Source: Polytrichum commune | Lineage: Eukaryota; Streptophyta; Polytrichopsida; Polytrichales; Polytrichaceae | Length of the DNA stretch: 64,000 nucleotides | Assembly (NCBI GenBank): GCA_950295325.1 | Contig: OX485807.1 | Location: 51,076,796 to 51,140,795, forward strand | Direction: 5' to 3' | Program-made: the position numbers and the translations under genes | Part shown: positions 29,309 through 63,875 of the stretch, piece by piece | Layout of the letters: each line of letters starts with the position of its first letter | Numbering within the stretch: the first letter of the stretch is position 1 | The notes under the pieces: model-generated | The model's input: only the letters and a program-made list of their open reading frames with translations | The model's database searches: none | Told to the model about the DNA's origin: nothing

Positions 29309-29359
29309 CAAGGTTGTCTATCGCGACGTCATGACGGTGTCGTGCCGTCATGTCAGGTC

Positions 29360-29389
29360 GTGTCGTGACGGACCCCTCCGTCACGACAC
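29360..29389. repeat. Subterminal hairpin with hAT motif
   Basis: A perfect 13-bp stem, GTGTCGTGACGGA and its complement, around a CCCC loop, 50 bp inside the left end. The TGTCGTGACGG word recurs at the right end and is a candidate transposase-binding site. Confidence 0.75.
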
Positions 29390-29577
29390 AATAGGGTCCA
29401 CGTAGGGTCAACATAGGGGGAATGGACTAGGGTGGGTAAAATACTTACCTTCTTGCCAAGGTGGCGTCCTATGTGGCAGAAAACACCGACGTGGATGTGC
29501 ATATTTCCCTTGCCAAGTAAACCATTTTGCCATTGTGTTTAGGGTTCTGTTAAAATCAAAGTAGAAAAATATGACTA

Positions 29578-30530
29578 AGGAGGGTGTGGGGCGGACGGGA
29601 GAGGGGGGTGGTGCGGACGGCGGAGGGGGGTGGTGCGGACGGCGGAGGGGGGTGGTGCGGACGGCGGAGGGGGGTGGAGCGGACGGACGGGGGGTGGTGC
29701 GGACGGGGGAGGGGGGTGGTGCGGACGGGGGAGGGGGGTGGTGCGGACGGACGGGGGGTGGAGCGGACGGGGGAGGGGGGTGGTGCGGACGGACGGGGGG
29801 TGGAGCGGACGGGGGTGGGGCGGACGGAGGGGGGTGGAGCGGACGGGGGAGGGGGGTGGAGCGGACGGGGGTGGGGCGGACGGAGGGGGGTGGAGCGGAT
29901 GGGGGAGGGGGTGGAGCGGACGGGGGTGGAGCGGACGGGGGAGGGGGTGGAGCGGACGGGGGTGGGGCGGAAGGGGGTTGGGAACGGGGGGGAGAACGCT
30001 GGAGCGGACGGGGGAACGCGGGGGCGGACGGGGGGAACGCGGAGGGCTCCGTCCGCCCCAAGTTCCCTCACGTCCGCCCCACGTTCCCCCGCCGTGCATT
30101 CACGTTCCCACACGTTTCCTAACGTCCGCACCCGTTCCCTACCGCGTTCCCCCCAGTCCGCACCCGTTCCCTCCCGTCCACGCCCGTTCCCCCCCAGTCC
30201 GCACCCGTTCCCTTCCCGTCCGCCCCGCGTTCCCTTCCCGTCCCTTCCCGTCCGCCCCACGTTCCCTCCCGTCCGCCCCATGTTCCCTCCCGTCCGCGCT
30301 ACGTTCCCCTCCCGTCCGCCCGCGTTCCCCTCCAGTCCGCCCCACGTTCCCCTCCTGTCCGCCCCATGTTCCCGTACGTTCCCTCCCGTCCACGCTCCGT
30401 TCCCTTCCGTCCGCCCGAGTTCCCCTACGTCCGCCCCATGTTCCCGTACGTTCCCTCCCGTCCGCGCTCCGTTCCCTTCCGTCCGCCCCCTCGTTCCCTC
30501 CGTCCGCCCCCGCGTTCCCACGTTCCCCAT
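29578..30530. repeat. GC-rich VNTR with strand switch (kinase promoter array)
   Basis: Units of roughly 18-22 bp built on GCGGACGGGGGAGG run from 29578 to about 30044 with G on the plus strand. From about 30045 to 30530 the array is inverted (CCGTCCGCCCC with CGTTCCC). The result is two back-to-back arrays of about 470 bp. Long Pro/Ser/Gly-rich frames across it are translations of the repeat, not genes. It is CpG-dense and has G-quadruplex potential. Confidence 0.9.
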
Positions 30531-30595
30531 ACGTCCTTTTCGTGCCCCATGTCAAATCCGACCGGGATCCCATAATGATTGTGCTCCCCTTTGCC

Positions 30596-30603
30596 TATAT
30601 AAA
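30596..30603 (+). promoter_or_regulatory. TATA box of kinase-like gene
   Basis: TATATAAA lies 66 bp after the VNTR ends and 226 bp before the ATG at 30829. The leader between them is pyrimidine-rich and carries TTCACTCACT repeats. Confidence 0.75.
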
Positions 30604-30828
30604 GCCGTGGGGTTTTAGTTCCCCTCACTTTCCTCTCCTCCCACCACAAAGGGACCCGAGACCTTGTTGCCGTCCCAAGGACAGCGGCACCGCGCGGGTC
30701 TCAGGGGGTTTGGGAGGGCAGGGCAAATTGTGGGGGAACCCTCGCAATTTTTTTTCCAGATTCACGCACTCATTTCTACATTCACTCACTCCTTTTTACA
30801 TTCACTCACTCACGCGGTTTTTTTCACG

Positions 30829-32745
30829 ATGGAGGGGGAGGACATTGCTCCTTACCAAGACGAGGATACGAGGCTGCACCGTGCTTGGCTCCAAAGCACT
30901 CCACTTGCGCATACTGGAGAGGGTACGGGAAGCGAGGCCGGAAGTGGAAGCACTGCAGCACGTCCCCCACGTCCAGATCCTTTTCGGTTTGACGAAGAGT
31001 TCTTTGCAGTTGGCCATTCAGGAGGCAACCAAACACGTGGAAGCCGTGGAACACGTGGGAGTCGGGGAAACAGTGGACATAGAGGGAGAACAGGAAGGGG
31101 ACCAAGCTCAGGCAGTTCCACCGATATAAATGCAGCCACTCATGGAGAGTCCGTGCCACCACGATCTCCGACACGGCGGACATCAAGACCGGAGAGCCCT
31201 GCACGTGATGTACCTCAGGGTTCGGAGCATGGTGAAAGACGGGGACAAAAACGCCCAGCAATTTCGGAAGGGACGGAGGAGGGGTCCGGGGTTTCAGGTT
31301 CGCAATCGAGGAAAAGGAAAAATAGAGGCAAACGCGACCCGCGGATCGATGAGGCTCGAAACCATTGTAGGGTCGTGCTGTTGGAGTGGTTTAGAAATAA
31401 CAGCATGGTTTATTTGGAAAAAAAATACCTCAATGATGGTACAAAGGGGTTGGATTTGGTGAGGAACGATTTGATTCTTATTCTCACGGAAGCCACGGCT
31501 GGAGCGGAGTTTGAAGATGCTAGGGGCATGAGCGATTGGGGCACCTGGATTGAACAACAAACCGTGGAAGCAATCTACAATCCAACAATGGCATATGATG
31601 TTGTGCATCCTAGCGAGGGAAGTAGTAGTGGCAGGAAGTCCGAGCTGTACATGAAGCTAGAGAATTGGAAAAGAGGCGTAATAGCAGCAAAAGGAACATC
31701 CGCCCGCAACCTTCCCATTTTTATTGACAGGCAGATGGCAGACAACATTGCCACTCAGGGCCGGCAGGGTGTCATATGGTTGCCTAGGAATGCGGAGATC
31801 AAAGCCTTGGATAAGGAAATCTTCCAAGGGACCTTCGGAGTGGTGCGGAGAGTCGCAATTCATGGAGCATCATTCATCCCTAGCTGGATAGAGTGGGCTG
31901 GGAAGACCATGAAGGCCACGAATAGTTTGGAGAATCGAAAGGAACGTTCAGTTGAAGCATTGGCGTGTCCAGTAGATCATCCTGGGGTAATCAAGCTACA
32001 ATACCTCAATATGAAAACATACGAATCCTATTCGATGTGGTGGAATGGAGGCTCCTTGAAAAACATGAGGATCTATGACTTCAGCGTTCCGGAAACCCAC
32101 GAGCGCACAATCCTTCACATGCCTGGGGCAGACTTTGAAGCACGGAAACGGTTGGTTGTATATCGAAGGCATCGAGCTTATTTGGCATGGGCTCTAATGT
32201 GCATTGTGGATGTAGTGCACAAGCATGACGTGTTGCACAATGACCTTAATCCCAACAATGTCATGCTGCATTTCCCACAAGATCGTGAGAACACGGTTTA
32301 CATTGGTGTGTGTGATTGGGGCATGGCATCCTGGGGAGGTGAAGACGCACCCTCCAACTATGGAAAAGATTCAGTGGATGAGATAAACAAGCACAAAGCA
32401 AAATACAACTGTGCTGGTCCAGAATTATTCCATGTACGAGGGCAGCGTGGAACATCCACCTCTCCGGTGAGGATGGCTCGGAAACATAGGCACACATTTC
32501 TATCGGAGTCCTTCTCAGTGGGTGCTTTGGCAAAGAAGATTTATGCCAGGGATGCGACTTCCCCCTTGTTTCAGCTAAACAGTGATCCAAATGGCTTGAA
32601 TATGCGGTTTGAGTTAGCATTGGATTCATTGACAAAGACCAATCCAGCGGAAAGGTCAACCATCACACACGTAGTGAACATTTTGAAGTCCCCTCCATAC
32701 AACATGGTTAACCCGACAATGTGCTTCCGTGACACTGCAAAATAG
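30829..32745 (+). CDS. Non-canonical protein kinase-like protein of hAT element
   Basis: 638 aa, uninterrupted. Residues 1-170 are low-complexity Gly/Ser/Arg with a nuclear-localisation-like RKRKNRGKR at 161-169. Residues about 171-300 form a region I do not recognise. Residues about 320-625 fit a protein kinase fold: GTFGVV loop at 334-339, candidate Lys359 (AGKTMK), Glu376, catalytic loop HNDLNPNNV at 470-478, metal motif DWG at 496-498 (usually DFG), and GPE at 530-532 in place of APE. The catalytic Asp472, Asn477 and Asp496 remain, so activity is plausible. The first ATG is at 30829; the frame is open further up but without ATG. It is driven by the VNTR/TATA block near the left hAT end. 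The substrate is unknown. Confidence 0.85.
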   Translation: MEGEDIAPYQDEDTRLHRAWLQSTPLAHTGEGTGSEAGSGSTAARPPRPDPFRFDEEFFAVGHSGGNQTRGSRGTRGSRGNSGHRGRTGRGPSSGSSTDINAATHGESVPPRSPTRRTSRPESPARDVPQGSEHGERRGQKRPAISEGTEEGSGVSGSQSRKRKNRGKRDPRIDEARNHCRVVLLEWFRNNSMVYLEKKYLNDGTKGLDLVRNDLILILTEATAGAEFEDARGMSDWGTWIEQQTVEAIYNPTMAYDVVHPSEGSSSGRKSELYMKLENWKRGVIAAKGTSARNLPIFIDRQMADNIATQGRQGVIWLPRNAEIKALDKEIFQGTFGVVRRVAIHGASFIPSWIEWAGKTMKATNSLENRKERSVEALACPVDHPGVIKLQYLNMKTYESYSMWWNGGSLKNMRIYDFSVPETHERTILHMPGADFEARKRLVVYRRHRAYLAWALMCIVDVVHKHDVLHNDLNPNNVMLHFPQDRENTVYIGVCDWGMASWGGEDAPSNYGKDSVDEINKHKAKYNCAGPELFHVRGQRGTSTSPVRMARKHRHTFLSESFSVGALAKKIYARDATSPLFQLNSDPNGLNMRFELALDSLTKTNPAERSTITHVVNILKSPPYNMVNPTMCFRDTAK

Positions 32746-33375: not shown

Positions 33376-33404
33376 CACTACAACAGATTGGGTATTTTGT
33401 GACT
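33376..33404 (+). repeat. CACTA left terminal inverted repeat
   Basis: 29 bp, identical to the reverse complement of 49004-49032. Confidence 0.97.
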
Positions 33405-34031
33405 AGGGAAATATGACTGGGGATGACTGGTGACTACATGCAGTCACATTTTGGCAGGCCTCGACCTTTGTTGGGTACGAAATTCAAAAATATGACTCGC
33501 AGTCATATTTTTGTGTCGTATTCGGCAAATGTACTGTATACGGCGTATGGGAACGACGAGTGTCTTTATAGGGAACGACGGGGAACGTCTATGGTGGACG
33601 CCCAGTCATGTGTGGCAGTCACATTTTTCTGCGAGTCATATTCTTCAGTCACATTCTGACTAGGACCATTTTTTTCCTTCTTTTGGGCAGCCCTTGATAA
33701 TTCAGGCTGCCCTAGATGGGCCTCTTGTGTTTTTGCCCCGTGACTCATTATCTAGTATTATGGTGTGGAGTATTTATTTAATAATGACAGATATTGGTCA
33801 AAATTAAGTACTTTGTGTGTTATAGTATGAACGGCAATGAGAATTGGGAATGTCCCATGTTTATTTATTGAATAATTAATTGATTGATGTTTTAGGGAGT
33901 ATAGGGGGGAAATTGGGGAGGAAGTTTGATTTTTACTATTGCCAAGAGACTAATTGAACATGTATATAATTGAAATTAAATATATAAAAAACCTAAGTTT
34001 CATTTATACAACTTCTTGCACGAACGGGAAG

Positions 34032-34928
34032 TCAATCGCCGTCCGATACGCAGTGCTCGGAGTCATCTACCGATGCGTCATCCGGTCCCTCTAGACATTC
34101 TAGTGCCTTGGCAACCACTCCTGGCCCTACTTCCACTGCATCGCCCAATATGGGTGTTTTCGGTACAATATCGTCCTGAAACGCCGTCACTTGTAATCCG
34201 GGAAAATCAGAAGTCCTACCTAGTGCTATGCACTGTACTTCATCCGTTCTTTGTTGTTTGGAGAATACCCGAACCCCTCTCGGTTCCTTGCGCAAAACAA
34301 CTTCCCATCCACACTTCGCTACATCAGGTGCAAAAAAAACTTGTTCGATGTGGAGAGGAAATGCAAATGATTGTGCTGAGAACGGGATCAATCTGTCAAA
34401 GTTTACACTGGTGAAACCATAGTCGTCGCGCTTCATCGTCGCCCCATCTCCCTTAATGTTTGCAACGATCCAATTGCAATAGAGGACCACCACCTCGAAG
34501 AATCCATAGTCCACAGATAGGATTTCCTCCACCCAACCCACATACTCCAACTCCGCTGCCTTTGGATTTGTGTCCTTCAGGCCCAAGCGACATACTTGTC
34601 GAAATGTTGCGGCCACCCCAGAGTCCATCGTTGTCAATTGCGCCTGTGCGCTTCGGACACGGATGTGGTTTCCAAACGCATACATGGATCGATACGACTT
34701 CGCTGCATCCGATGGAGGTAACATCAAGGCCCTAACGTCTTCGTGTACCTCCTCCGTGCCTTCTTCTATGGTGCGCATCACTGCTTTTGGAAACCAAATG
34801 TGGAAATCCTCGTCGCGCAGCTCCGCTGGGTACATTACCCGCGCCTTCCGCTTCTTGCGCCTGTATTCGTGCCGCTCACATTCCCGCCGTGACATGTCAT
34901 CCTCGTGTTTCTTGCATTTTGGATACAA
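34032..34928 (-). CDS. CACTA transposase C-terminal part (DUF4216)
   Basis: 298-codon minus-strand frame following the DUF4218 exon. It begins with a basic helix-like region and FHIWFPKAV, typical of the segment after DUF4218 in plant CACTA transposases. About residues 140-235 match DUF4216: VLYCNWI, YGFTSVNF, QVFFAPD and GWEVVLRKEPRGV. It is the last exon(s) of the TNP2 gene or a separate small gene. The acceptor cannot be fixed: the only AG in frame (ATGCAAG) is weak, and the strong donor GAG/GTGAGT upstream at about 35203 does not give the right phase. The tail is acidic. Confidence 0.75.
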   Translation of the reverse strand: MYPKCKKHEDDMSRRECERHEYRRKKRKARVMYPAELRDEDFHIWFPKAVMRTIEEGTEEVHEDVRALMLPPSDAAKSYRSMYAFGNHIRVRSAQAQLTTMDSGVAATFRQVCRLGLKDTNPKAAELEYVGWVEEILSVDYGFFEVVVLYCNWIVANIKGDGATMKRDDYGFTSVNFDRLIPFSAQSFAFPLHIEQVFFAPDVAKCGWEVVLRKEPRGVRVFSKQQRTDEVQCIALGRTSDFPGLQVTAFQDDIVPKTPILGDAVEVGPGVVAKALECLEGPDDASVDDSEHCVSDGD

Positions 34929-35244
34929 CCCAACACATCATTACCCGTGACTTGCTGAAATCACTAAGGGTAGTCATATTTGCATACAACAGTAGTCGTA
35001 CTGTGTCGCGATAACTACAACGAAATGCATATTTTACGACTATATTTTGTGATTGTACTCAGTCATAAATCCCAAAATATGATTGACTGCAGTCATATTT
35101 TTTTGTCACAAAAGATGTGTTTTGTTATAGTTCGTATGGTCTGCACTGTTGTTCTAAGAGAGGTGGTGCATTTAAGGTTCTTCCACTAAAATGTGAACTC
35201 ACCTCCTCCACTCCTCCAGTGGTGCCGCATTGTTCACCACGAAC

Positions 35245-36105
35245 TCATGTATCCATTGTCGAAGGTCGGATGGGAGATGACGCGCGCGCCTGCCCGCCAC
35301 CTTCGAGGATCTCATCATACATTAATGGGTCTTCTTTGTCATCCCACACTCTTCGAGTGGTGACTGTATATTCTTGTATATACTCCGTACAGAATCCCAA
35401 TGCCTCTACTATGGCGTAGCCTTCAGCCATGCAACCCTCTGGGCGAGTACGGTTTCGGACATACCCTTTTAGAGTCTTCAGGTACCTCTCAATATGATAC
35501 ATCCAACGTGTATGTACGGGTCCACAAATTTCCACTTCCTCCACGAGATGCAGGACCAAATGGCTCATGATGTCAAAAAATGATGGCGGGAATTCTTTTT
35601 CCAACATGCATAGTGCTATGGCCGCTTCACACCTCATCTCTTGTATTGTTGCAGGATCAATGTACTTAGCACACACCCTCCTGAATATACGGCTCAACAT
35701 TATTATTGATGTCCGCACTTCCTTTTCCATTGTGCAGCGCACACATAGTGCCAACACTTGCTGCATGAGGACATGGTAGTCGTGGGATTTCAGGCCTTTA
35801 ATTTGTCCATCCACGTTTACGCGCTTCTTCAACTGTCCCACATAGTGAGTGGGGGTTCGCAGTGCACGAACTTGCTCCACAAAGACTTCACGCTCTTCTT
35901 TCGTCATAACGTACGAGGATCGAGGTAGAATCACGCTACCGGGTTTTGTTCCTGCTACGGGCCAAAGATGCGGGCGTATACCCGCCTCCTTCATGTCCAG
36001 ACGAACTCCAAGTGTATCCTTCTCTCCAAATATGGTTTTCATCACATTCTCAGCGATGTTTTTCTCACAGTGCATAACATCCAACGTGTGTCGAATTAGA
36101 AGATC
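35245..36105 (-). CDS. CACTA transposase exon 3 (TNP2 end, DUF4218)
   Basis: Starts at a strong acceptor ATTGTGCAG/GAT and continues the transposase frame as DLLIRHTLDVMHCEKNI, the highly conserved TNP2 end. DUF4218 follows with FPPSFFDIMSHL, VHTRWMYHIERYLKTLKGYV and RPEGCMAEGY. The frame then stops soon after EILEGGGQARA, while the +1 frame continues naturally as RHLPSDLRQWIHEFVVNN and reaches a good donor at about 35203. A one-base slip in the run GCGCGCGCG near 35280 is the likely cause: a real mutation or an assembly error. Confidence 0.9.
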   Translation of the reverse strand, partial: DLLIRHTLDVMHCEKNIAENVMKTIFGEKDTLGVRLDMKEAGIRPHLWPVAGTKPGSVILPRSSYVMTKEEREVFVEQVRALRTPTHYVGQLKKRVNVDGQIKGLKSHDYHVLMQQVLALCVRCTMEKEVRTSIIMLSRIFRRVCAKYIDPATIQEMRCEAAIALCMLEKEFPPSFFDIMSHLVLHLVEEVEICGPVHTRWMYHIERYLKTLKGYVRNRTRPEGCMAEGYAIVEALGFCTEYIQEYTVTTRRVWDDKEDPLMYDEILEGGGQARASSPIRPSTMDT

Positions 36106-36281
36106 CTGCACAATGACTCGACCCAGTGAGAAATGCTCCGGAGCGAATCACAATATCACTACGTGCAATCATGTGACTGTACATGACTACGTCCACTCAC
36201 ATAATACTCATAAACAATATTACTATATGCAATCATGTGACTACGTCCACTCCCTTAATTCTCATAATAAGAAACACGTAC

Positions 36282-37835
36282 TTTCCAGTATGGAAGGTCA
36301 TATAGACATGTCCTCCTCTTCACTCCATGTTCGTGTACGGGGTCTGTCGTCTGCCCAGTTTGGTTTCTGTAGTGTTTTTTCGTCCACTCTTCTCGCTCGT
36401 TCGCATATCGTAATTGCTCTCGACCACTCATCCTTCTTGGCGGTGGTCTCATCTCCGGCTGCCCGTCAAAATTGGACCTTTGTCGTCTCCATTGGTGGGT
36501 CATTGGCAGTTGTCGTCTATGCCCAAGGTAAACATTTTTTTTCAGCGCTTTGGAACGCCGTGTTGCCACGTTGGGGCCACACACGGGGCAAGCCCTATGT
36601 CCTTTTGTTACTTGCCCCGAAATCAAACCGTACGCCAGGAAGTCATTCACCGTCCACAAAAGCATGCCATGTAGCTTAAATGTTTTCTCTTTGGGGTTTC
36701 CTTGCGATCCGTCCAAGCAATCGATCCCTTTCCAAAGCTCTTGGAGCTCCTCAATCAACGGTGCCATGTACACATCCACGTTCCTGTCCCTTACACTCTC
36801 TTTTCCTGGTATGATTAGCGCAAGCATCATGAAGAAGTTTTTGGTCACTAACCAAGGGGGGAGATTGTAGTTTAGCATGACCACGGGCCAAGTAGAGTGG
36901 CTGAGACTTTGGTTCCTAAATGGATTTACGCCATCCAGTGCAAGGCCAAGCCTAACGTTCCGTTCATCTTCCGCAAACCATGGCCACCTATTATTTACGT
37001 GGTCCCAAGCCTTCGAGTCCACCACGGACCTCATCACCTTGTCCTTACTTTTCCCACCTACATGCCACTTCATTAGGCCCGCGATCCGTGTGCAGCTATA
37101 CATCCTTCGCAAACGAGGAATCAAGGGAAAATGTCTCAAAACTTTGACTGGAATTGTACCGGAGTTCTCTACAAAGCGCGATTTGTGGCATGTTGGGCAC
37201 TCCGTTGCATTCTCCAATTCTTTCCGAAACAAACAACATCCATCTCTACACACATGTATTGAGTTGTAGGACAACCCCAACTTCATCAACAAGCCTTTCG
37301 CCTCGTTAAATGATTTCGGTATTGTATTGTCCTTGGGTAAAATTGTCTCCTTCAACAACTTCAACAACTCATCCACAAAGTTGTTTGGTACAGCGAATGT
37401 GGTGCAACACAATAGTATCAAGAGTGTCGATGTGAGACGGTTCGAGGGGCTTCCCTCATACAGTGGAGTTCCAGCTTCGCATAAGAGCTTCTGGTGGTCT
37501 ACCCAAGTGGGGTCCTCACTGTTCATCGTACTCCCTCTTGTTTCCATGGGGTCATTCGTTTCTTCCCTTTCCCCCTCGCTACCTTCACTGTCCTTCGTTG
37601 TGAAACCATCCTCCCCTTCATCGTCTTCAACCAATGCATCCCCGAGTCCCTCATGTATGGTGGCTTCGGTTTCATGTCCATCAAATTTGAGGTCATCGTA
37701 CTTGCCAAAGCACTCTGCCACCATACGTAGAACCTCAACTTCTCCTTCTTGTCCATCGTTTGTGTTAGGGTATGTCTGGTTTCTTTGCCCAATCCGGGGT
37801 GCATGGGAGAACAAGTCAATCGGGTTGTACTCGTC
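36282..37835 (-). CDS. CACTA transposase exon 2 (TNP2 domain)
   Basis: 518 codons between acceptor TATCTGCAG/GAC and donor AAA/GTACGT, both in phase 0. After an acidic N-terminal region (about 110 residues) come HVCRDGCCLFRKEL and CPTCHKSRF (zinc-binding-like), then the TNP2 core: RLGLALDGVNPFRNQS, WPVVMLNYNLPPWL, LLWTVNDFLAYG and CPVCG, ending with YLGHRRQLPMTHQWR and CLYDLPYWK. This is the DDE-type transposase that acts on CACTA ends. The DG and ND motifs thought to include catalytic acids are present. No stop interrupts the exon. Confidence 0.95.
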
Positions 37836-38365
37836 CTGCAGATAGTGATAAATTTGTTCGCACGTTATATATTTTCGCTTTGGCAGAAACATACGACAAG
37901 GACTCATAACAATGACGATCATAGAACACGGATTGTATATAACGTGCACATATTATATACAAATGTATAAAAACGACAAGGAGCAATCACAAGTAACATT
38001 GTATCACATGGATGAGTCATAAATTTGTGACTTCTGTGTTACATGATTCTGTCATAAAATGAACAATGTATCTACGAGGGGCAATCATGAAACGCCGAAT
38101 ATAACATGAACTTGTAACATGCGTGGGGGGGGGGGGATGTTCATCGATTATGAAGACAAGAGTGTGTTAGGTAAAAGAAATTTCATGCATCATACAAATA
38201 CAAGCATTGGATGTAAAAAATTGGTCATGTTCCACGTACACATGTATACCGTGGTCTGGACATGTATACAAAATTTTGTCAAAACAAAATATGACTTCGT
38301 GTAGTCATGTTAGTGAACACATGGCACACTTTAGTCATTCCGAATGTGGACTAATGGGTGTCAGC

Positions 38366-38851
38366 CTACAATGTGGTGTGCGGGTTCAAAGAATAATGTG
38401 CATACAACTCTTCTCCGACCATAATGTCCTTTGTGGCCATGGTGATTACATACCCCCATTCCTGTTTGTTCCAGGGTTTTGGCAACATGCGAAATTCCCA
38501 CACCACATTTCCTATTTCTTTGCGTCCTATGGAACTATTTATGAAGCCTGCGACATTCCCTTTCATTACATCTCCATCGATGTACAAGTCCGGCTCAACT
38601 TGCATCGCATATGACTTCACTCGAGGATGTGCCTTCTTCAAGGCACTGTATTCTCCCTTGGTGTATTGTGGTCCTACGAATGGAAGCAGTTCCTCTCCCT
38701 CTTTGGCGGGTTGAAGTGCAAAGAGACCCCAACCCATGAATGGGAAGTTGGACACCCTTACTTCCCATTCTCTATTCCAGTATGAAAACTTTATAAGTTT
38801 TGGGATGGGCCCGTCACACCACTGTCCGTCATACACGTTTGACCCCCATGA
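38366..38851 (-). CDS. SET-domain ORF inside CACTA transposase gene
   Basis: 161 codons after an acceptor-like CCTTGTAG, in phase 0 with the donor of the upstream exon at 39067. Signature residues of the SET lysine methyltransferase fold occur in order: GWGLFA, GEELLPFVG, LYIDGD, GNVAGFINSS (normally NHS; His replaced by Ser), GNVVW, and DIMVGEELYAHYS just before the stop. So SAM-binding and GEEL-Y motifs look preserved. Pre-SET and post-SET cysteines are not seen. No ATG lies at the start (the first codon downstream of the acceptor that could start is GTG), which favours expression as a spliced exon, for example Transpos_assoc-SET. Alternatively it is an independent captured gene lacking its first exon. 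Confidence 0.75.
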   Translation of the reverse strand, partial: SWGSNVYDGQWCDGPIPKLIKFSYWNREWEVRVSNFPFMGWGLFALQPAKEGEELLPFVGPQYTKGEYSALKKAHPRVKSYAMQVEPDLYIDGDVMKGNVAGFINSSIGRKEIGNVVWEFRMLPKPWNKQEWGYVITMATKDIMVGEELYAHYSLNPHTTL

Positions 38852-39066
38852 CTACAAGGCTCGTACTCTTGCAGACGCAGTGTTTGGCATTGACTGTGAA
38901 GGCATTTCGTGTCCTCCTAGAAACTTTCTCAGGGATGTCTTGCAAGCAGCTTTTACAATGGGTCTCCATCGGGCCTACAAAATTCATGTACACAAAGATG
39001 AAAACTCGCTCAAAGCAGGACCACCCGCTGACGCTCATTCACAAGTCGTTTCATGGAATGACTCAC

Positions 39067-39264
39067 CAAGATAGAGGTTGTAAACACGGGGTCCCTTTTT
39101 TTGCTGCGAAGATGCTTTCGAATTGTGGCTCGATCGAGGACTTTCCCTCCTGCACACTCCATGCAGGGGCATGGGTACTTGGATAGCCGCATTGCATCTG
39201 CTTGGACCTCTTCTTCTTGCCATAACTGTAGATGCTTCAAGCTTTCGACCTCCCCTCCTGCCAT
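39067..39264 (-). CDS. CACTA transposase exon 1 (Transpos_assoc domain)
   Basis: 66 codons from ATG at 39264 to a strong donor TTG/GTGAGT. It contains KYPCPCMECAGGKVL and DRATIRKHLRSKKRD, the CPC..C and IxxHL pattern of the N-terminal transposase-associated domain (PF13963) of plant CACTA proteins. Phase 0 allows joining either to the TNP2 exon at 37835 or to the SET exon at 38851. A 69-codon frame between them (38829-39038) with several Cys pairs may be another exon. Confidence 0.75.
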
Positions 39265-39380
39265 CCTGTGGTGTGCATGGCATACGCGCTGGGTCAATTT
39301 GTGATATGGGAATACCTTACAAGGAGGAAGTGCTCGTATGCACGCAGTCACCTATCTATGTGGCTTAATACGGTCTAAGG

Positions 39381-41051: not shown

Positions 41052-41052
<1 letters not shown>

Positions 41053-41082
<30 letters not shown>

Positions 41083-52502: not shown

Positions 52503-55203
52503 TAAGGTGAGTGTCAAAGTTCAATGTCCTAAGGTGAATTTACCCTCTAATGTTTTAATGAGCTACTCGGTTATAGGTTCCTTTTAAGTTCTTAGCAAAT
52601 CCCCAAAAAGGTTGAGGACGTACCTTCGCCGCGCTCCTTCCTCAAAAATGAATTTGCGTAATTGACAATGCAATTCATTCCAAGGAATAGTTGAAATACA
52701 ATGAATTCAAATGTAACCCAAAGAGAGAATACTTACCGAGTTTCGGGTGCTCCTTCCCTTCTCTCAAGTTTGTGTCTCCAATTTTTCCTAGTTGCCTCCA
52801 AGTCTCCTAGTCGCCTCCAAGTCTTGTAACTACCTTCCGCTTCGCTCCCGGCGGACGCACCAATTATGTGAGGCCAAACCCCCCACCCTTAAGCGTCCGT
52901 AGTCCGAGTAGTGGGTTTGGGCTCACATTCCTCCGCGGTATTGGATTTGGACTTGGATGAGTCCATAGTGCAAGGTTCACCCTTCAAGTGGTCTTGGATT
53001 TAACTGGAATTTCACTTTTAACAACTCAATGTACGATTTCAATACGTATGTGGAGAATGCACAAGTTAACTATGTTATTTTAACCTCCTTATGCTCGGGT
53101 GCTATTTTGTCTTTGTTTGCTTCTAACGTCCATCCGGCTGCTTTAGCTACACAAGCCCTTAAGGATATCCCTCTCCTAAATGGAGTCCGTGCCGTTGACT
53201 CTATACTACCACTTGAACTATCACTTGTGTATTCCGTATCGCTACTATAAGAGGTCTCACTTGGTGTCTCCGTACCGTACATAAGCCTTTAAGTATTAAG
53301 AAATACTTATGTGACTTATGTCAATCTCTCCCTCGCACCTTTGGTCTTTGCTTCCTTTGTCTTGCCATCGCGAGAGTGCTCCACATTCTCCATTAAGTTG
53401 TGTACGTGGTTTATTTTTAAAGAGAGGATGCAAGTGTTAAAAAAAACACTATTATCTATAGTCAATCTCAAATACATTTACTTGTGAAAGCCACACATAA
53501 CACTAACTAGCATAATGTAACTAACTACTTGTCTATGAGCTAATTAGGTAGGCTATCTACTAAGCTCCTTCATGAACCCATCTCTTTACTTTCTAATTAC
53601 ATAAACCTAGCTCCTTCATAAACCCAGCTCCTTCATAAACCCAGCTTCTTAGCTTCTAACTAAACAAACCCAGCTCCTTCATAAACCCAGCTCCTTCATG
53701 AACCCAGCTCCTTAGCTTCTAACTAAACAAACCCAGGTCCTTCATAAACCTAGCTCTTTACTTTCTAACTAAACAAACCCAGCTCCTTCATAAACCCAGC
53801 TCCTTCATGAACCCAACTTCTTAGCTTCTAACTAAACAAACCCAGCTCCTTCATAAACCCAGCTCCTTCATGAACCCAGCTCCTTAGCTTCTAACTAAAC
53901 AAACCCAGGTCCTTCATAAACCCAGCTCTTTACTTTCTAACTAAACAAACCCAGCTCCTTCATAAACCCAGCTCCTTCATGAACCCACAACTTTGTAGTT
54001 GTAATCCCCAACTACCTCACTAATTATTCAAGCCCTTAACTAATCTTCCTACCTAATTTCCCTAATTCTACTAACAACCCCTTTCTAATCACACAATTCT
54101 TCTCTAATCCTAAAATCCTAAAATCCTAGAGAGGAGAGGGGGAGAGAGAATTTCCTAACTTCACTAAGACTAACTAATCCACACAAGTATATTTTTGCAC
54201 TCATCACAACATCAAGTGCTCAACTCTTAAACATGGAACTTGCAACCACGTGTATTCAAAACATGAACTTAAAGTACCACAAATTGGAATCATGAATTAA
54301 CTTTAAAATCCTTCACGTCAACACTAATTCTACCAAGAGGTCAAGCCCTCTTCAAGGCTAACAAGCCTTGGCTCTCAAACTAAAAACTAAGCACACACAT
54401 GTGCTCCAATATGGCTTCCCACACCCACACTTATAACTCGTGGGGTGCCTTGGAGCACAAAGGAAAGAGAGGATGAGTGAGGGAAGAATGAGGGATTATA
54501 TAGTAAGCTTGAGGGGGTGAGCACCCTCAAGGCTCACGATAAGCCCTTGAGATTTCCTCCTACTTAGTAGGCGCCAATCCTATCTTCTAAGCCTTCCTCC
54601 CTCAAATGATCAACAAGGATCCTAATTCGAGCATTTAACTAGCCTTGGCTTTCTACCTACCACACTTTACCAAACTTGGGATGCTTCAACCCAAACTTAG
54701 CCTCCTTCGCTTTCCGCCGCCATAACTTTCTCCCCTTACTTTCCCAAATCGTCGCTCACCACTTAATTCAAACCACGATGCTTAACTCGTGATTTGATTG
54801 GTGCTTTGAGAATTTGCTTATCCTCCACCTTGCATTCTTCCTTGGGCCTTCCCCATTAAGTGGCCATGATGAGGTGGTCCACTTGTGCGCTCCATGTGAT
54901 CCTCCATTCATCCCAATTCGAATGCACTTGCCTCTTGAGTCACTTTGGTTGTCTCCATCTATTTGTACTAGCCTACTCACTAACTACTCAATCCAAGTTC
55001 TCCTTACCTATCCTCATTCACTCAAATCCTTCCGAAGGTAAAAACACAATAACAACTCACATCCTAGCCTCTTACAACATGGTACTTCTAAGACTAACAT
55101 TTCACTCTTTTTATATTTTTGTGAAGTAACATGCTACTTCAAAGTGCATCAACTAACGTTTCAAGGGTCTAAGACTAAATGTGGGCACCCTTTTGGGCTC
55201 ACA
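52503..55203. other. 2.7-kb segment between direct repeats
   Basis: No coding frame recognised. It contains the tandem repeat listed separately and an inverted pair TGTGAGGCCAAACCC / GGGTTTGGGCTCACA at about 52867-52926. It is absent from the second copy's right side, so it looks like an insertion or duplication by-product. Confidence 0.5.
53575..53990. repeat. CCCAGCTCCTTCATAAA tandem repeat
   Basis: Short units CCCAGCTCCTTCAT(A/G)AA alternate with CTTCTAACTAAACAAA in a higher-order repeat of about 65-130 bp. Confidence 0.9.
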
Positions 55204-55677
55204 TACTTGTACATCGTTGTCTCCATAGGGGTGATAATTTGTTGGTCATCATACTACATTGGTTACTTTGTTGCTTGAGGGGTCCTTCATTAGTTTTGTG
55301 TGGATAAGTACACCGGTAATGATATTTATTGTCACATATATTATTTGCAAAGGGCCTAAGTTAGATGGGGTGCGGATGGGGGGACGCGGGAATGTGCAGT
55401 AGAAATATTATTGCATATTCATGTAGAGGACTTCATTACCTATCCATGGATACCAAGAAATCATTTTTTGGACTTCATATGAATTTTTGAGAGCCAAAAA
55501 ACCGAGACTATGTCCAAACTTCCAAAAAAAATTAAAAAGTGCAGATTCAAAGGAACTCGGGAGCGGACGTATGGGAACGCTAAAGCGGACGCAGGGGAAC
55601 TCTAAAGCGGACGTAGGGGAACATGGGGCGGACTTATAGGAACGTTGGAGCGGACGTAAGGGAACATGGAGCGGACG
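55204..55677. repeat. 473-bp direct repeat, copy 2
   Basis: Second copy, running directly into the long GC-rich VNTR. Confidence 0.95.
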
Positions 55678-56386
55678 GGGGGGAGCGGACGGGGGGGAGC
55701 GGAAGGGGGGGGGGGGGGGGTTGGAGCGGACGGGGGGAACGCGGGAGCGGACTGAGGGGAGCGGACGTAGGGAACGAGGGGGCGGACGTTTGGGAACGGG
55801 CGGGAACGGGTGCGGACTGGGGGGAACGGGAGCGGACGGGAGGGAACGGGTGCGGACTGGGGGGAACGCGGGGGGCGGACGTAGGGGACGTTTGGGAACG
55901 GATGCGGACGTTTGGGAACGGGTGCGGACTGGGGGGAACGCGGGGGGCGGACGTAGGGGAACGGGTGCGGACTGGGGGGGAACGGGCACGGACGGGAGGG
56001 AACGGGTGCGGACTGGGGGGAACGCGGGGGGCGGACATAGGGGAACGGGTGCGGACTGGCAGGGAACGGGCGCGGACGGGAGGGAACAGGTGCGGACTGG
56101 GGGAACGCGGGCGTGGACTGGTAGGGAACGGGTGCGGACTGGAGGGGAACGCGGGGGGCGGACGGGGGCGGGAACGGGTGCGGACTGGGAGGGGAACGGG
56201 CGCGGACTGGGAGGGGAACGCGGGGGGCGGACGTAGGGGAACGAGTGCGGACGTAGGGGAACGAGTGCGGACGGGGGTGGGAACGGGTGCGGACTGGGAG
56301 GGGAACGGGTGCGGACTGGGAGGGGAACGGGCGCGGACGGGAGGGAACGGGTGCGAACAGGGTGGGAACGGGGAGCGGATGGAGGG
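55560..56386. repeat. GC-rich VNTR upstream of RING gene
   Basis: G on the plus strand. The first 120 bp has units of about 23 bp with GCGGACGTAGGGGAAC; the main part has about 21-bp units GGAACGGGTGCGGACTGGGG. It ends 2 bp before a TATA box. The 337- and 284-codon frames across it are repeat artefacts. Confidence 0.9.
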
Positions 56387-56395: not shown

Positions 56396-56862
56396 TGGAG
56401 GGGACCACTTACATACCCCACTCCACTCCTTGTGGGCGCCCGGACGACCCTCCTCTACTACAGAGTGCGGGGTTTAGTGGGGTGCTCGGAGGAGTTAAGG
56501 ATCCCTTTTTTGGGATCCTTTTATATTTTTTTTACTGACCTGTTTGTGGGTGTGATCCACGTGGACCCGTTCCCTTGTGACGTGGCATATTGCCTTTTTG
56601 GCATATTCCTTGTGACGCGCCCAGTCAACTGGCCTCTGCGTGAGCGCTGGTAGTGGGGTGCTCGAAGGGTGTGCTGAATTTTTGTACTTTAATTTTTAAC
56701 GACATTTTTGAACTAATTCCACAGCAACACTATTTTGAAGTGTATGCTTGGATGTTTTGTAGCACTATTATGAAGTGCAATTAGTAATTTAAAAATTAGA
56801 GTTCTAGATTAAAATTTGAAACTACAATTTGGGTGGATCCGGCAAGTGAAGGATTTCCAGAC

Positions 56863-59135
56863 ATGGCAAGTGGAGGATCTGGAGACATGGCAAGTGGGGG
56901 ATCAGGTTGCCACAGATCACATGTACGCAAGGCCGCTGGGTTGGAGTGGGATGTTTATGATGACAACACTCAAAAAGCCAGGGCAGGTTGGGAGAATGTA
57001 CCACAACCGTGGTCAGTGAAGACTGCAATGCAGTACGTGGGCTTCCCTCACTTTGATCGGTTGTGGCCAAGACCTTGTCACGAGCGACACTGCAAGGCCA
57101 TCAGTGCGAGTTATATGCAGCTTGATGACGTGGAGGCAAAATGGAGATTCCTAACGATACTTAGAAGTATCTCCAATTTGGATAGATGGCCCAAGAGTGC
57201 AATTCCAAAGTCGGTGGCGTGTATGATGTATGCGGAGCACGTGTTGCGAGTTAGGGTGGATTGGTCAAGTTTGGCTACCCTGCATGGTCAAAAATTTGGG
57301 GGTATTGGAATTGCATTCACTAAATGCACAGTTCCAGATATTCCATACACTCCCGTTCCGGAGTGGTTCAGGAGGAATCCTCGACTAGTGGACGAGCCTG
57401 GGGCCCCAATTCCAGAGGGTCGGGAACCAAAAAAACCACGTAATCGTAAACGACCAGCCAATGACGTGGAGATGGCCATCGAGGAGGCGTTTGAGCATAT
57501 GGATGAGGGCATGGAGGCAAATGTCGAGGTCAACAACCTGATCAACGACGTGGTTAACGAGGTCCTAGACGAGATAAACCTTGGTGAACATGGAGTGGAC
57601 CCGACGGAGAGCAGAATGGAGGAATTGCGTAAGCAACATGCGTTGGAAATTCGTGAGTATAAAACGATGATTTTCGAGTTGGAAAATCGAGTTGCAACAC
57701 TTACGATGGGGGAGGCTAGCAGTTCAAGTAGTACACCAATTAACCTTCAGTCTTTGGAAGCAGAGAGGGACGCAGCTTTACAGGAGGCCAAGATTGCAAA
57801 GTCACAAGCTCTGGAGGTATGTATGAGGAATGAAGTAATGCGAGGAAGATGGAGGCTTTGCAAAAGGAGGTGGTGGACATGCAACAACAACTTCAAGTGG
57901 TCAATGAAGTGGTTGTTGATCACGAAGCCAAGATTGGCGGACTGGAGGAGCAGAATGCAAGGTTGAAGAAATTTCTGTTGGATGCGATTGTGGAGCGCAA
58001 AAATATGAGGACAAGCACATTGCTTGCTATGGCCAAGGCTCATCAATTTGAAGCTGAGTTTGAGAGCATCCAGAAAGAATGGAACCGCAATCAGAGAATG
58101 CGGAATATGATGCTCACGTCATGGCCAGAAGATGAGCAAATGTACCCTAGTAGGTGGGATAGGGATAATGAGTGGACATTGCCAAGCGGGAGCATCGATT
58201 GGCGTCAAGTGACCGACCCAGATCACCATTGGGATGTGACCCAAGTGCATGAATATCCATTCCGCATGAGGGGTGAGTTGTTATGGCCAAATCCACATAC
58301 AATGGTCTTCGACGGAACCGCATGTGCGATTTGCCAATGTCCATTTGGCCCAGAGGAATGTTATCAAGTTGGATCATATGGGGTCCAATTCCATCCACAA
58401 TGTCTAATAGGGAATATGATCAAGAAACGCCAATGTCCTCATTGCAGATCACCCTTCCACCCTCGTTTGTACCTCCAATTTGGCCTTCGGGATTACATGC
58501 CTAACGACTGGGTATTAAAGCCATGGGACTTTCCCTTCAATCTTCAAGAGTTTGATGGGGAGAATGTTGAGTGGAGTTGGTTATACAATTGTGCCAAGGT
58601 TGAGCTATGGCACGAGAACAGAGATGTCGACTGGACACGGAATGCACGTCAAATTTTGTATGTTGCAGACGAGTTGTATCCCAACAAGCCCTCCGATCAT
58701 GGCTTGAAAAGATTTTTGTACCCAACTCTTGAATGGCATTAGGATTCAACCAACAGACAATTAAAGAGAGGCATTCATCCTCCTTGGTACAATGCAGCAG
58801 GTCTCGAATCAGTATCGGAGCATGATTTGGAAGAAAATGCAGATGACATGCCTACGGAATGGGATCCGAGATATGAATTGCAGTTAGAGGTGGGGTACCA
58901 CAAGAACAGGCTGCAGTTGGCTGCAATTGATGCACTCTTGCATAGAGTTGCGGATGATGTGGTATTGAGATGGCTAAATGGTGGGCCTAGACCACGTAAT
59001 GCCGTTCCATTGTCTCCTGGTAGTCGTCCATACCTCACCCGTGGAACAACGCGAAGTATGGAAGCGGGGGAATCATCACGAGCACGACGAGGATCTACTT
59101 CAGCTAGAATAGACCTCGATTCAGAGTCGGATTAG
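56863..59135 (+). pseudogene. Coiled-coil RING-finger protein gene of hAT element, broken
   Basis: The first frame (ATG 56863 to about 57840) gives an unrecognised globular region with HFDRLWPRPCHERHC, then an acidic helix and a coiled coil. The frame then shifts by one (about 57820-57850). The next frame continues the coiled coil (MEALQKEVVDMQQQLQ) and encodes a RING-like zinc site at about 58323-58446: CAIC, EEC, FHPQC and CPHC. A TAG at 58740 interrupts; the same frame stays open for 130 more codons to 59135 (RGIHPPWYNAAG, then IDLDSESD). A GTATGT donor-like site at 57817 exists, but an intron of 33-51 bp would be too short. RING proteins usually act as ubiquitin ligases; here that is inferred only. 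Confidence 0.7.
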
Positions 59136-59834: not shown

Positions 59835-62800
59835 TTACGTTCGAATCCGTACTGTGGGATCATTTGCTTCGACACATCTTGGGTCCTCTTCAGACTCGTC
59901 TGTGCTGCAATCATCATCCGTTTGGGGAGTCGCGCTCCGAAGATGCAACTCTCGGTCACGTTGTGAGAAAATTATCTTCTTGGTCGGCCGGGAGCCCTCT
60001 GCATCCTGTATGCCATTTTCATCTAGATGTGGTCTACCCTCATCTTCATTGTAGTCTTCAGCAGTAAACGGAAGCGATCTTCCCTGATACCTCTTCCTAG
60101 TACGTCTGACACCTCTCGTAGTTCTCTGACGCCCTCCATCCGTACCACGACTTGAGTGCACTTCATCTCTACTTCCATCTATAAAAACATCCCCCGTTGT
60201 ACTTCCGCCTCCAACTCCAAGGCCACATGTTCCATTGGATTGACTGTGTGGAAGTGAAACTGATGCGGATGGAATTGCAATTGGTATGTTCTCAACAACA
60301 TGTCGACGAACAGAATGACGACGTGGCGCCTCTGTAGTAACATTTCTTGAAACATTGTGTATAGCAACCAAAGTAGCACCCACCGCAGTTGCACGTGAAA
60401 CACCCAATCTAGAAGTATTGGCAATACTTCGAGTGAGAGGACGACGTTGACCTTGTGCATGCACTTGCACCGTAGAGGTTGATGCAGTTCTTTGAAGAGC
60501 ACGGAATCGAGTTGTAGGTATTTCAGGAACATTGGGCATTTGATCTTCTATACGATGGTTGGATATGAGGGAGGCGTCCATGGATTCAGAATGTACTCGG
60601 GCTGGAAATGGATCCTGTTGAACGTGCGTTGGCTCATTTGCGGGTAGTACATTGTCACCTTCACCAAAAGAAAGATAATCGCTCCGAGGTTGCAAGGAAT
60701 CTACTTCAATTCCTACATTCTCACTTGCCCCCATAGCAACATTATGGGCAGGGCGAAACCCTTGTCCAATGTGGAGAGTTTCAAAAGGCGGTCCTCCAAT
60801 AGATCCCTCATGATCGTCATGCATTCCGTCGTTATGTTGGGGGACATCCGGTTCATCAAAATCAAACACCCCAAGGTTTCCATCACTACCATTGCCATCC
60901 TCATCTTCTGAATCATGATTCTCGGAATCGAGGTCATCCAAATCAAAGTCGATGTCATCAACATTGTTGTCAGCATCATTTCCGGCACTATCATTTGGAT
61001 CCACGTCATCTTCGTTGTCATCTTCTTCGTTGTCATCTTCTTCGTCAAGGTCATCGTCAGAATGGACCTCATTCAATTCGTACCATTGCGCAAGTCTTGG
61101 GCCCCTCCGATGTCGAATGAGCCTACTATTGGTATATATGTAGACGAGGTCCTCGGCACGACTATGCTTCAAGCGATTGCGACTCTTGTTGTGAACATAT
61201 GAGTACATACTCCAATTGCGTTCACATGCGGATGCGGAACATACTTGTGCAAGGATACGTCTTGCTATTGTTTGGAAGGCTTTAGCTCCACCTCCCATTG
61301 CATCCCACCATTCATGGAGAGGTGCGGCATGCACGCTCGGGTCAGTAGAATCAGCAAAAGGCCCTCGATTTTCAAGGAAATCTTGGTACTGGTGGAGGAT
61401 TTGGACATAAGTGTCCTCATCTTGAGCAAGCCTGCGAAGAACTCGATTTAGGATTGTCCTCGAATTCTCATCCTCATGGAGTGGGGCCCAACCACGTAGA
61501 AGCGGATTTAACATCGCTCCAGCCCAATGTAGATCATTCAACATCAACCTCCATCTATTTTGAAACGTTAGCATAGCATTTGCAGCAAGCTCAGGGCTTA
61601 AGCGAAATGGAGGTTTACTGAATCCACGAATATGGGTTTGTAAATCATGCATGACCCTCCAAGCCATTCCCATTGCAGGCGCCTTGCCATCAAATACACG
61701 AAGAGCTTTAACAACCGGGATCACCATATACAAGAAATTTTCGCACGTGTTCCAGAATCCATCAGAACGTATAAAGCTTCGCACAGCAGAGCCCTTCATG
61801 TAAGAGGTGCGAGATCTCCTCCTCATATCACGCATTAGAGTAGGCCAATCCTCATCAACCACCATTCTTTCCAAAGCATTGCGTACTTGAAGAAGACGAT
61901 CTATCATGATGAAGTTCGTTGCAAAACGGGTCTCTACAGGTAGGCGGAGTGAGAGATTTGGTGACAACCTCCGGAATATAGCTTGAAAAGCATGATGGTT
62001 TTTGATAAAAACACAAATATGGCGCGCCTTTTTTACCAACTTTTTCACCCATTCCTCCTTCCCCCAATCTTCTAAGAGGAGATCTAGGCAATGCGCAGCA
62101 CATCCTTGAAAATATAGATCGGGATTTGCTTGAATCAAGTCGCGAGCAGCGGAGGCCATAACTGGGGCATTGTCGGTGCAAATCTGGACCACATTATGTC
62201 GACCAACCTTTTCCACAAATGGTTGAATTTGAGCAGCAACGTATACATGATCCTTGTGATTTCCCGTGGTATCAATGGTACCCAAGAAAACATCTCCCTT
62301 TGTGCCGCATTGGAGAACGTTTAGGAGAGGTCGGTTTTGCACGTTGTCCCATCCATCACAACATATTGTAACACCGTATTTTTCAACGGAATTCCCCATC
62401 TTCTCCTTCACTTGCCTATCTAGGTCAACCTTTTTATCAGTTAACAACTTCGTACGGATGGCATTGTACGATGGTGGTGTGTAGGCTGGCATTCGATGAC
62501 GGGCAGTTTCACGCACAGCATGAACAAATGCAGGATGTCTCACAATGTTGAAAGGAATGTTAGCTTCATAAAAAGTCGTTGCCCATGCTCTATCAAGGAG
62601 TTGTTTTGTTGACACATTGAACCCCTCCGTTATGTTGAGTTGACGTAGTTCACGAGGAGGTGTGCCATATATCACAACATCAGAATGTTGAGTGGATTGG
62701 GACATAAGCAAAGGCTCTGTTTCACTAATTACGGAGTCCGCTATAATAGGCTCCAGAGGTACAATATCTGGCACCGGAGAGTCCTCATTTACAATGCCTA

Positions 62801-63047
62801 CATGTAAGGGCACAATGCCTCCGCAATGTTCAAACAAGACCCTAATATGCGGGGGTACCATCCTACATGTGGAAACATCACAAGCACCCCCTACAGGAGG
62901 TCTATAACCAAGGTGGGCCAACATTCTATTTCCTCGGTAAGATATGACGAACGGGCAAAACCTACATTTAACCTGCCTTTGTGATTTACCGGGAACCATC
63001 CCCTTATCCTCGTACCAATGATCCCATGCATCATTTCGGCGTGGCAT
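59835..63047 (-). CDS. hAT transposase
   Basis: 1,070 aa, uninterrupted. BED-type zinc finger at about 1-70 (C28, C31, H45, C56/C61). DUF659 plus RNase-H-like core at about 190-345 with CCDGWDN (D231) and ICTDNAP (D292). The hAT C-terminal dimerisation region at about 580-645 has SACERNWS (E609 as third catalytic acid) and NRLKHSRAEDLVYIY. All three DDE residues are present, so it may be active. An unusual 425-residue tail follows: a very acidic stretch (about 662-740) and a basic Ser/Arg-rich end. I start at ATG 63047, just behind a good acceptor TTTGTATTTGCAG at 63062, implying a 5'-UTR intron; the frame is open 10 codons further up. It lies next to the right hAT end, transcribed inward. 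Confidence 0.95.
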   Translation of the reverse strand: MPRRNDAWDHWYEDKGMVPGKSQRQVKCRFCPFVISYRGNRMLAHLGYRPPVGGACDVSTCRMVPPHIRVLFEHCGGIVPLHVGIVNEDSPVPDIVPLEPIIADSVISETEPLLMSQSTQHSDVVIYGTPPRELRQLNITEGFNVSTKQLLDRAWATTFYEANIPFNIVRHPAFVHAVRETARHRMPAYTPPSYNAIRTKLLTDKKVDLDRQVKEKMGNSVEKYGVTICCDGWDNVQNRPLLNVLQCGTKGDVFLGTIDTTGNHKDHVYVAAQIQPFVEKVGRHNVVQICTDNAPVMASAARDLIQANPDLYFQGCAAHCLDLLLEDWGKEEWVKKLVKKARHICVFIKNHHAFQAIFRRLSPNLSLRLPVETRFATNFIMIDRLLQVRNALERMVVDEDWPTLMRDMRRRSRTSYMKGSAVRSFIRSDGFWNTCENFLYMVIPVVKALRVFDGKAPAMGMAWRVMHDLQTHIRGFSKPPFRLSPELAANAMLTFQNRWRLMLNDLHWAGAMLNPLLRGWAPLHEDENSRTILNRVLRRLAQDEDTYVQILHQYQDFLENRGPFADSTDPSVHAAPLHEWWDAMGGGAKAFQTIARRILAQVCSASACERNWSMYSYVHNKSRNRLKHSRAEDLVYIYTNSRLIRHRRGPRLAQWYELNEVHSDDDLDEEDDNEEDDNEDDVDPNDSAGNDADNNVDDIDFDLDDLDSENHDSEDEDGNGSDGNLGVFDFDEPDVPQHNDGMHDDHEGSIGGPPFETLHIGQGFRPAHNVAMGASENVGIEVDSLQPRSDYLSFGEGDNVLPANEPTHVQQDPFPARVHSESMDASLISNHRIEDQMPNVPEIPTTRFRALQRTASTSTVQVHAQGQRRPLTRSIANTSRLGVSRATAVGATLVAIHNVSRNVTTEAPRRHSVRRHVVENIPIAIPSASVSLPHSQSNGTCGLGVGGGSTTGDVFIDGSRDEVHSSRGTDGGRQRTTRGVRRTRKRYQGRSLPFTAEDYNEDEGRPHLDENGIQDAEGSRPTKKIIFSQRDRELHLRSATPQTDDDCSTDESEEDPRCVEANDPTVRIRT

Positions 63048-63277
63048 GACTTCAACAAAACCTGCAAATACAAACAAGTTAGAGCAAGTAACTTTGATCG
63101 CATACTAGGTCCTGTTCAAGAGTGCCACAAGGGCAACCCTAATTCACAGTCACTAGATTGGACAAAGTATCCTCTGCATTTGGGTCTCATGCATTCAATC
63201 CTCACTCCTCAAAGGAGAATCAAAAGACTTGAGACACACTATGTCAGTGGAGGCAAAAATGGCACCTTGAACCCTCA

Positions 63278-63285
63278 ATTTATAG
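63278..63285 (-). promoter_or_regulatory. TATA box of hAT transposase gene
   Basis: TATAAATT on the minus strand, 10 bp downstream (in gene direction) of the right VNTR and 230 bp before the ATG. Confidence 0.6.
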
Positions 63286-63295
63286 TATTCGAATC

Positions 63296-63642
63296 GGACG
63301 GGGGAGCGGACGGAAGGGGGGGGGGGAGCGGACGGGGAGCGGACGGAGGGGGGGGGAAGCGGACAAGGGAGCGGACGGGGGAGCGGACGGACGGGGGGGA
63401 GCGGACGGGGGGGCGGACGGGGAAGCGGACGGAGGGGGGGGGGAGCGGACAAGGGAGCGGGCGGGGGAGCGGACGGACGGGGGGGGGGGGGGGGGCGAAC
63501 GGGAGAGGGGGGAGCGGACGGGGTTGGGAACGGGAGCGGACGGGGGGGAACGGTGGCGAACGGGGATTGTGAACGGGAGCGGACGGGGGGGAACGGGGGC
63601 GAACGGGGGTTGGGAACCGAGGCGGACGGGGGGGCGGACAGG
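63296..63642. repeat. GC-rich VNTR upstream of hAT transposase
   Basis: GAGCGGACGGGGG units with expanded G runs on the plus strand. Same family as the arrays at 29.6-30.5 kb and 55.6-56.4 kb. Confidence 0.9.
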
Positions 63643-63875
63643 CTCTAGTAAATTTTTCCCCACTTTACCTTTACTTTGCTGACATGTCATCACACGTGGA
63701 CATTGTAAATCATACGTGTCAGAAATGGGTTAATGTAATTACACAAAAAAATCGGTAAAATTCAAGTCCGTCAGGATAAAGACAGCATCCGGCATAATGT
63801 CGTGACGGATACGTGTTGTGACGGCACGACATTATGTCGGGATTACCCTCCGTCACGACACAATAGACAACCCTG

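Follow-up and report, generated by a model that had tools for sequence, protein, structure and literature searches.

A large hAT transposon family of Polytrichum commune that carries kinase-like and RING-finger genes

How many genes can a plant hAT transposon carry as its own? Ordinary autonomous hAT elements span a few kb and encode a transposase only, and plant hATs are usually seen as small, one-gene selfish DNA. A different picture is suggested by a 64,000-nucleotide stretch of Polytrichum commune DNA (contig OX485807.1, positions 51,076,796 to 51,140,795; hereafter the window, with coordinates counted from its first letter), in which a sequence-only reading had proposed a giant hAT element that mobilises a kinase-like gene, a RING gene and an acidic open reading frame (ORF). 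The analysis reported here favours, with a probability of roughly 0.73, a family of large, recently active hAT elements that encodes a DUF659-type transposase, a kinase-like (KIN) protein and a RING protein, the two extra genes serving the element and not its host; the acidic ORF as a cargo gene found no support, in a weak test.

The unit spans positions 29309-63875 (34,567 bp) and is bordered on both sides by an exact 8-bp target-site duplication (TSD), GGGCGTTG (29301-29308 and 63876-63883), these being the only two matches to this 8-mer in the whole window. Its terminal inverted repeats (TIRs), CAAGGTTGTCTAT on the left (29309-29321, + strand) and CAGGGTTGTCTAT on the right (63863-63875, read on the - strand), agree at 12 of 13 positions; they are short and start with CA(G/A)GG, as hAT-type ends do. 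Since 26 of 100 shuffles also gave two or more matches, the 8-bp repeat by itself is weak evidence, and the unit was therefore tested genome-wide, in the one assembly that holds the window (407.8 Mb in 64 contigs, of which C1-C7, at 42-78 Mb each, account for 406 Mb). The TIR pattern CARGGTTGTCTAT has 1,077 exact matches there (526 forward, 551 reverse), against 10 (3 forward, 7 reverse) for a control pattern in reversed order. DNA searches with the two ends scored the best 40 of 605 (left) and the best 40 of 596 (right) candidates, from which 20 left/right pairs spaced 8.1 to 31.7 kb were picked and both flanks fetched. Identical 8-bp TSDs flank 19 of these pairs, the sole exception being C3:37995923-38011867. 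A further copy, C1:27817462-27833267 (TSD GCTGCTGG), is 15,806 bp long and colinear with the window element. Counting this copy and the window element, perfect 8-bp TSDs are found in 21 of 22 long elements, nine of which measure 15.0-16.3 kb, the remainder falling within 8.1 to 34.6 kb. At the left end, 20 of the other 21 elements read CAGGGTTGTCTAT, and one shows one extra change.

The insertion site also has an empty counterpart. A query in which both flanks were fused at one target site matched C5:51168306-51168611 at 97% across all 306 bases. There the 389-bp match to the left flank (99.5%) and the 125-bp match to the right flank (92.8%) overlap by exactly 8 bases, and the 8-mer that they share at C5:51168487-51168494, GGGTGTTG, differs from the window duplication by one C/T change. 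The site is paralogous, lies ~28 kb from the window element and holds the joined flanks around a single 8-bp target, with the element absent. Because the same flanks stand unfilled at this site, 34.6 kb were inserted between them in the window. Thus, certainty about the unit comes from the 19 further end pairs with perfect TSDs, the C1:27817462-27833267 copy and the paralogous empty site: the window unit moves as a single unit with 8-bp duplications. The duplication of the element's flanks, ~28 kb downstream, covers C5:51168106-51168811.

The length of the window copy reflects later insertions. A nested CACTA transposon, already recognized in the sequence-only reading, occupies 33376-49032 (15,657 bp; 16 of 16 terminal bases agree; TSD TGA; Transposase_21, 7.6e-72); it is absent from C1:27817462-27833267 and is a later insertion, not part of the hAT. 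The size of about 18.9 kb earlier given for the element without the CACTA proved too large, because a second insertion of 2,701 bp (52503-55203) lies between 474-bp direct copies of the element's own sequence (52030-52502 and 55204-55677, 99.6% identical). Apart from these two inserts, the array lengths and ~230 bp found in the 15,806-bp copy alone, this copy and the window element are colinear, and the uninterrupted size is 15.8 kb. Four other copies are 17.9-18.4 kb long, and a sub-lineage may share the 2.7-kb insert.

The element's own genes are three. The hAT transposase gene (59835-63047, - strand; 1,070 codons from ATG plus stop) is open, lying in an uninterrupted ORF (59838-63104, -) with Pfam matches to DUF659 (3e-35) and Dimer_Tnp_hAT (4.3e-9), and the intact transposase of the earlier account is thereby borne out, as are its TIRs and its exact duplication. 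The acidic motifs CCDGWDN, CTDN and CSASACERNWS, which we take to supply the hAT catalytic D, D and E, are present in 14 of 14 aligned copies, and an N-terminal C..C motif in 13, the other having a gap; the Pfam scan reported no zf-BED match, and a PDB sequence search with the transposase gave no match up to E 0.1. The kinase-like gene, KIN (30829-32745, +; 638 codons from ATG plus stop), is open in the window copy, where it matches Pkinase at 4.2e-6; across the three copies scanned, the match ranges from E 2.7e-7 to 9.1e-6 (25.7-30.7 bits, against a gathering cut-off of 31.7). Its motifs K / HND / DWG, presumably the catalytic K, HxD and DxG of protein kinases, are retained in all 19 aligned copies, and a PDB sequence search with KIN returned at most weak generic kinase matches (best E 0.013). 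The RING-finger gene (56800-59132, +) is disrupted in the window by a frameshift near 57849 and a premature stop at 58740; it forms a single 788-codon frame in some other copies, among them L010, L011 and L025, but not in the C1:27817462 copy. A scan of the open copy L010 matched zf-RING_2 at 2.9e-5 (24.7 bits, against a cut-off of 27.3), and the first Cys pair motif is intact in 35 of 37 aligned copies.

These genes recur together across the genome. The transposase search scored 43 of 321 candidates, these 43 being full length at 96-100% identity and 31 of them stop-free; the KIN search scored 69 of 253, 42 of them without stops; and the RING search gave 133 matches, which reduce to 103 loci when pieces no more than 4 kb apart are merged. 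A RING copy lies within 8 kb of 41 of the 43 listed transposases, against 0.17 expected for random points; KIN lies within 30 kb of at least 30, and both genes accompany at least 28. Likewise, at least 13 of the 22 bounded elements have all three genes among the matches listed, and at least 17 have KIN and RING; these linkage counts are lower bounds because only the best matches are listed. Other copies with the same ends and genes, as anticipated in the sequence-only reading, therefore exist, with at least one exception: C6:36405670-36413761, 8.1 kb long with a perfect TSD, carries transposase and RING and is too short for the kinase gene. In addition, the first 100 listed TIR places include 37 adjacent pairs less than 60 kb apart, 12 of 10.8-35.8 kb and 25 of 0.5-1.8 kb. 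Two of the short ones (L001 and L007), read end to end, have perfect TSDs, and thus gene-less short derivatives also transpose.

The gene set is common to three subfamilies that differ in architecture. An inverted subfamily, represented by C1:21919342-21935158 (perfect TSD, CCAAAAAG), has a KIN gene that is 93% identical and flipped in orientation. An old subfamily, represented by C1:46383500-46398092 (TSD with one mismatch), keeps all three genes in a different order and orientation, with protein identities of 83% for KIN, 80% for the transposase and 70% for RING. Synonymous distances between window-type and old copies are unequal from gene to gene (transposase 0.11, KIN 0.19, RING 0.26), which may mean that modules were exchanged between lineages. 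At C1:21.86-21.97 Mb, three inverted-kinase copies stand at near-identical spacing with flanking short TIR pairs, a cluster that probably arose by tandem or segmental amplification.

A further shared property is the sequence in front of each gene. GC-rich tandem arrays lie upstream of KIN (29591-30527; a G-rich half, then a C-rich half adjoining the gene, with TATATAA 68 bp beyond the edge), of RING (55563-56370; G-rich on the coding strand, with TATATAA 17 bp beyond the edge) and of the transposase gene (63306-63640; C-rich on the coding strand, with TATAAAT 22 bp beyond the edge), and a partial RING-type array is found at 52388-52502, within the duplicated 474 bp. Such an array precedes the gene in all nine combinations of three genes and three architectures, and its strand is fixed for each gene, C-rich beside KIN and the transposase and G-rich beside RING. 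Not every array segment directly adjoins a gene: the inverted-kinase copy has one additional short array close to its left end, and in the main type the outer, G-rich half of the KIN array likewise stands apart. In all 12 cases read, the window copy among them, a TATA box separates the array from its gene, at 16-77 bp from the array edge except for the old-subfamily KIN (225 bp); the 12 cases are not independent, because the window copy is closely related to the C1:27817462 copy. The constant position and strand of the arrays, together with the TATA boxes, suggest that each gene and its array form a module with its own promoter.

Pairwise ratios of nonsynonymous to synonymous change (dN/dS), calculated by NG86 between subfamilies, are 0.48 for the transposase, 0.51 for KIN and 0.60 for RING when window-type and old copies are compared, all with intervals below 1, and 0.47 for the transposase and 0.35 for RING against the inverted subfamily. 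Since mutation spectrum and decay bias dN/dS, changes shared between copies were also compared with singletons in 36 RING, 19 KIN and 14 transposase copies; most of these ranked high in the score lists, and the disrupted RING of the window (L009) and a segmental duplicate (L013) were excluded. Relative to synonymous changes, nonsense changes are depleted among shared ones in RING (odds ratio 0.36, p=7e-4), KIN (0.11, p=0.004) and the transposase (0.13, p=0.024), and missense changes are depleted as well (0.67, 0.60 and 0.65, respectively; all p<0.05). When cross-subfamily changes are removed, the nonsense depletion stays (p 0.0011 for RING, 0.0011 for KIN and 0.013 for the transposase). Of the six frames of each gene, the true one gives the lowest nonsense ratio, for RING barely. 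Together these comparisons of aligned copies provide moderate evidence that selection has preserved KIN and RING to about the same extent as the transposase, with purifying selection acting on the older, shared changes; the evidence is moderate rather than strong because the wrong-frame controls are noisy.

The acidic ORF (51363-51830, +), which had been counted among the mobilised genes, is unsupported as cargo. Its sequence is found in all three subfamilies and shows no sign of coding selection: dN/dS between subfamilies is 0.82-1.33, reaching 1.33 (0.65-3.45) against the old one, in a test that is weak, with intervals of roughly 0.5 to 3.5 on ~150 codons. The frame contains stops in the inverted and old copies, the same two copies that also have stops in RING and the transposase. 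It has no Pfam match and no GC-rich array of its own upstream.

Among the alternatives, the one that survives best, although we consider it unlikely, is passive capture ('Pack-hAT'), in which a hAT of the ordinary kind would have acquired kinase and RING sequences from its host in the distant past and kept them as neutral passengers during a burst. Several results count in its favour or against a role of the extra genes in the element's life. Between the main and inverted subfamilies, KIN has dN/dS values of 0.77 and 0.95, whose intervals include 1, and a McDonald-Kreitman-style test on differences fixed between subfamilies reached significance for none of the genes, the transposase among them. 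Once cross-subfamily changes are removed, missense depletion is not significant (p 0.12, 0.16 and 0.09 for RING, KIN and the transposase). The 15 wrong-frame controls give nonsense ratios from 0.27 to 4.87, with nine of 15 below 1; two wrong frames show depletion at p<0.05, RING antisense 2 (0.38, against 0.36 for the true frame) and KIN frame +1 (0.27), and one control shows a significant nonsense excess. For missense changes, the wrong frames give ratios close to 1 or higher, antisense frame 1 being the exception (0.77 for RING, 0.53 for KIN and 0.58 for the transposase); there the ratios of KIN and the transposase fall below those of their true frames, an effect that we attribute to third positions coinciding there with the coding ones. 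Additionally, the Pfam scores of KIN and RING are under the curated cut-offs, and cargo is not required in cis, because the 8.1-kb element without room for the kinase and the short gene-less elements have moved. Against passive capture stand the shortage of nonsense changes among shared ones, seen in the two cargo genes as it is in the transposase, the survival of both genes through rearrangement of the gene order, and the promoter-like array at every gene.

A more improbable alternative is that the cargo is of use to the host, or serves as a payload for horizontal transfer like ToxA in ToxhAT. A large, multi-ORF element of hAT type is a known format: ToxhAT of wheat-pathogenic fungi, as excerpts of its published description have it, is a hAT-type element of ~14 kb with TIRs, cargo and eight ORFs, a nested transposon among them (PMC6737239). 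The window element resembles it in being large, with TIRs, several ORFs and a nested transposon; in contrast, ToxhAT is fungal and carries an effector gene, and the same excerpts describe most of its annotated instances as short fragments (PMC6737239), unlike the large family of long copies seen here. Against a payload, about 100 RING loci in this one genome and shared promoter-like arrays would suit a selfish role better, and one scan of a viral collection found no relative of the KIN domain. A viral origin of KIN was set aside on that same scan. Starship giant transposons are likewise large and carry cargo genes, but, as far as excerpts of the literature on them indicate, they use a tyrosine recombinase and occur in Pezizomycotina fungi (PMC12134995); they are not hATs. 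The idea that the two ends come from separate small hATs, the span between them being chance or a nested composite, which the sequence-only reading had named as a possible refutation, can be dismissed even though short same-TIR elements are common (25 of 37 adjacent pairs below 2.5 kb among the first 100 listed places) and one of 20 pairs lacks a TSD, since matching 8-bp TSDs in 21 of 22 long elements, the colinear 15.8-kb copy and the empty paralogous site speak for one unit.

For the kinase-like and RING genes of a recently active hAT family, we therefore infer a service to the element rather than to the host. The family shares with Ac, Tam3, hobo and Hermes the 8-bp TSD, short TIRs and a transposase with DUF659 and hAT dimerisation domains, and is unlike them in its uninterrupted length of 15.8 kb and in two extra genes apparently under selection. 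What that service might be is suggested by a comparison with VANDAL elements, which are Mutator-like and whose VANC protein is neither a kinase nor a RING protein. The window element has hAT transposase domains, not Mutator-like ones, and anti-silencing is here an analogy. According to excerpts of the work on Arabidopsis, VANDAL-encoded VANC binds non-coding regions with tandem-repeat targets and removes silencing marks (PMC5735166; PMC10398659). The likeness lies in an extra element-encoded gene beside the transposase and in rapidly diverging non-coding tandem repeats, as those excerpts describe them (PMC5735166; PMC10398659). By this analogy, the extra proteins probably counteract silencing by the host. 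In the mechanism that we consider most likely, the RING protein would act as an E3-type adaptor and, with the kinase, would inactivate or alter some silencing or repair factor of the host. The GC-rich arrays would then be a promoter and regulatory platform common to the three genes of the element that maintains their expression, in a way similar to VANC and its tandem-repeat targets in VANDAL elements. More tentatively, and with the odds somewhat against it, the analogy could extend to a dedicated counter-defence cassette, in which a transposon kinase and a RING-type ubiquitin ligase with shared repeat promoters would disable or re-target silencing or repair.

A plant hAT that carries both a kinase and a RING gene did not appear in literature searches of partial coverage. 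If the favoured reading is true, cut-and-paste transposons can build multi-gene programmes, here a recently active, high-copy hAT with KIN and RING genes and one repeat-array promoter for each, and the counter-defence cassette, if real, would parallel the VANC system at the level of protein modification. How a transposon might evade silencing by manipulating phosphorylation and ubiquitination in its host could be tested with this family, and its many near-identical copies, together with the empty site, make the activity of the element directly testable.

The nested CACTA has features of its own. Beside its TNP2 transposase lies a SET ORF (38369-38851, -; Pfam SET 6.8e-10) with 121 matches in the genome (best 150 of 203 candidates scored), three of which, besides the window's own, are 100% identical; the CACTA may thus belong to a family with its own chromatin-type gene. 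Tandem repeats like GTCATATGAC lie between its ORFs (39378-39616, 45279-45483, 46286-46383 and 47446-47659) and recall the hAT arrays that precede genes. Elsewhere in the window, a 68-bp tandem repeat array of ~16 copies is found at 12084-13191, and an L-type lectin receptor kinase is encoded in a single open frame at 15873-18245 (+; Lectin_legB 5.7e-43, Pkinase 3.6e-51).

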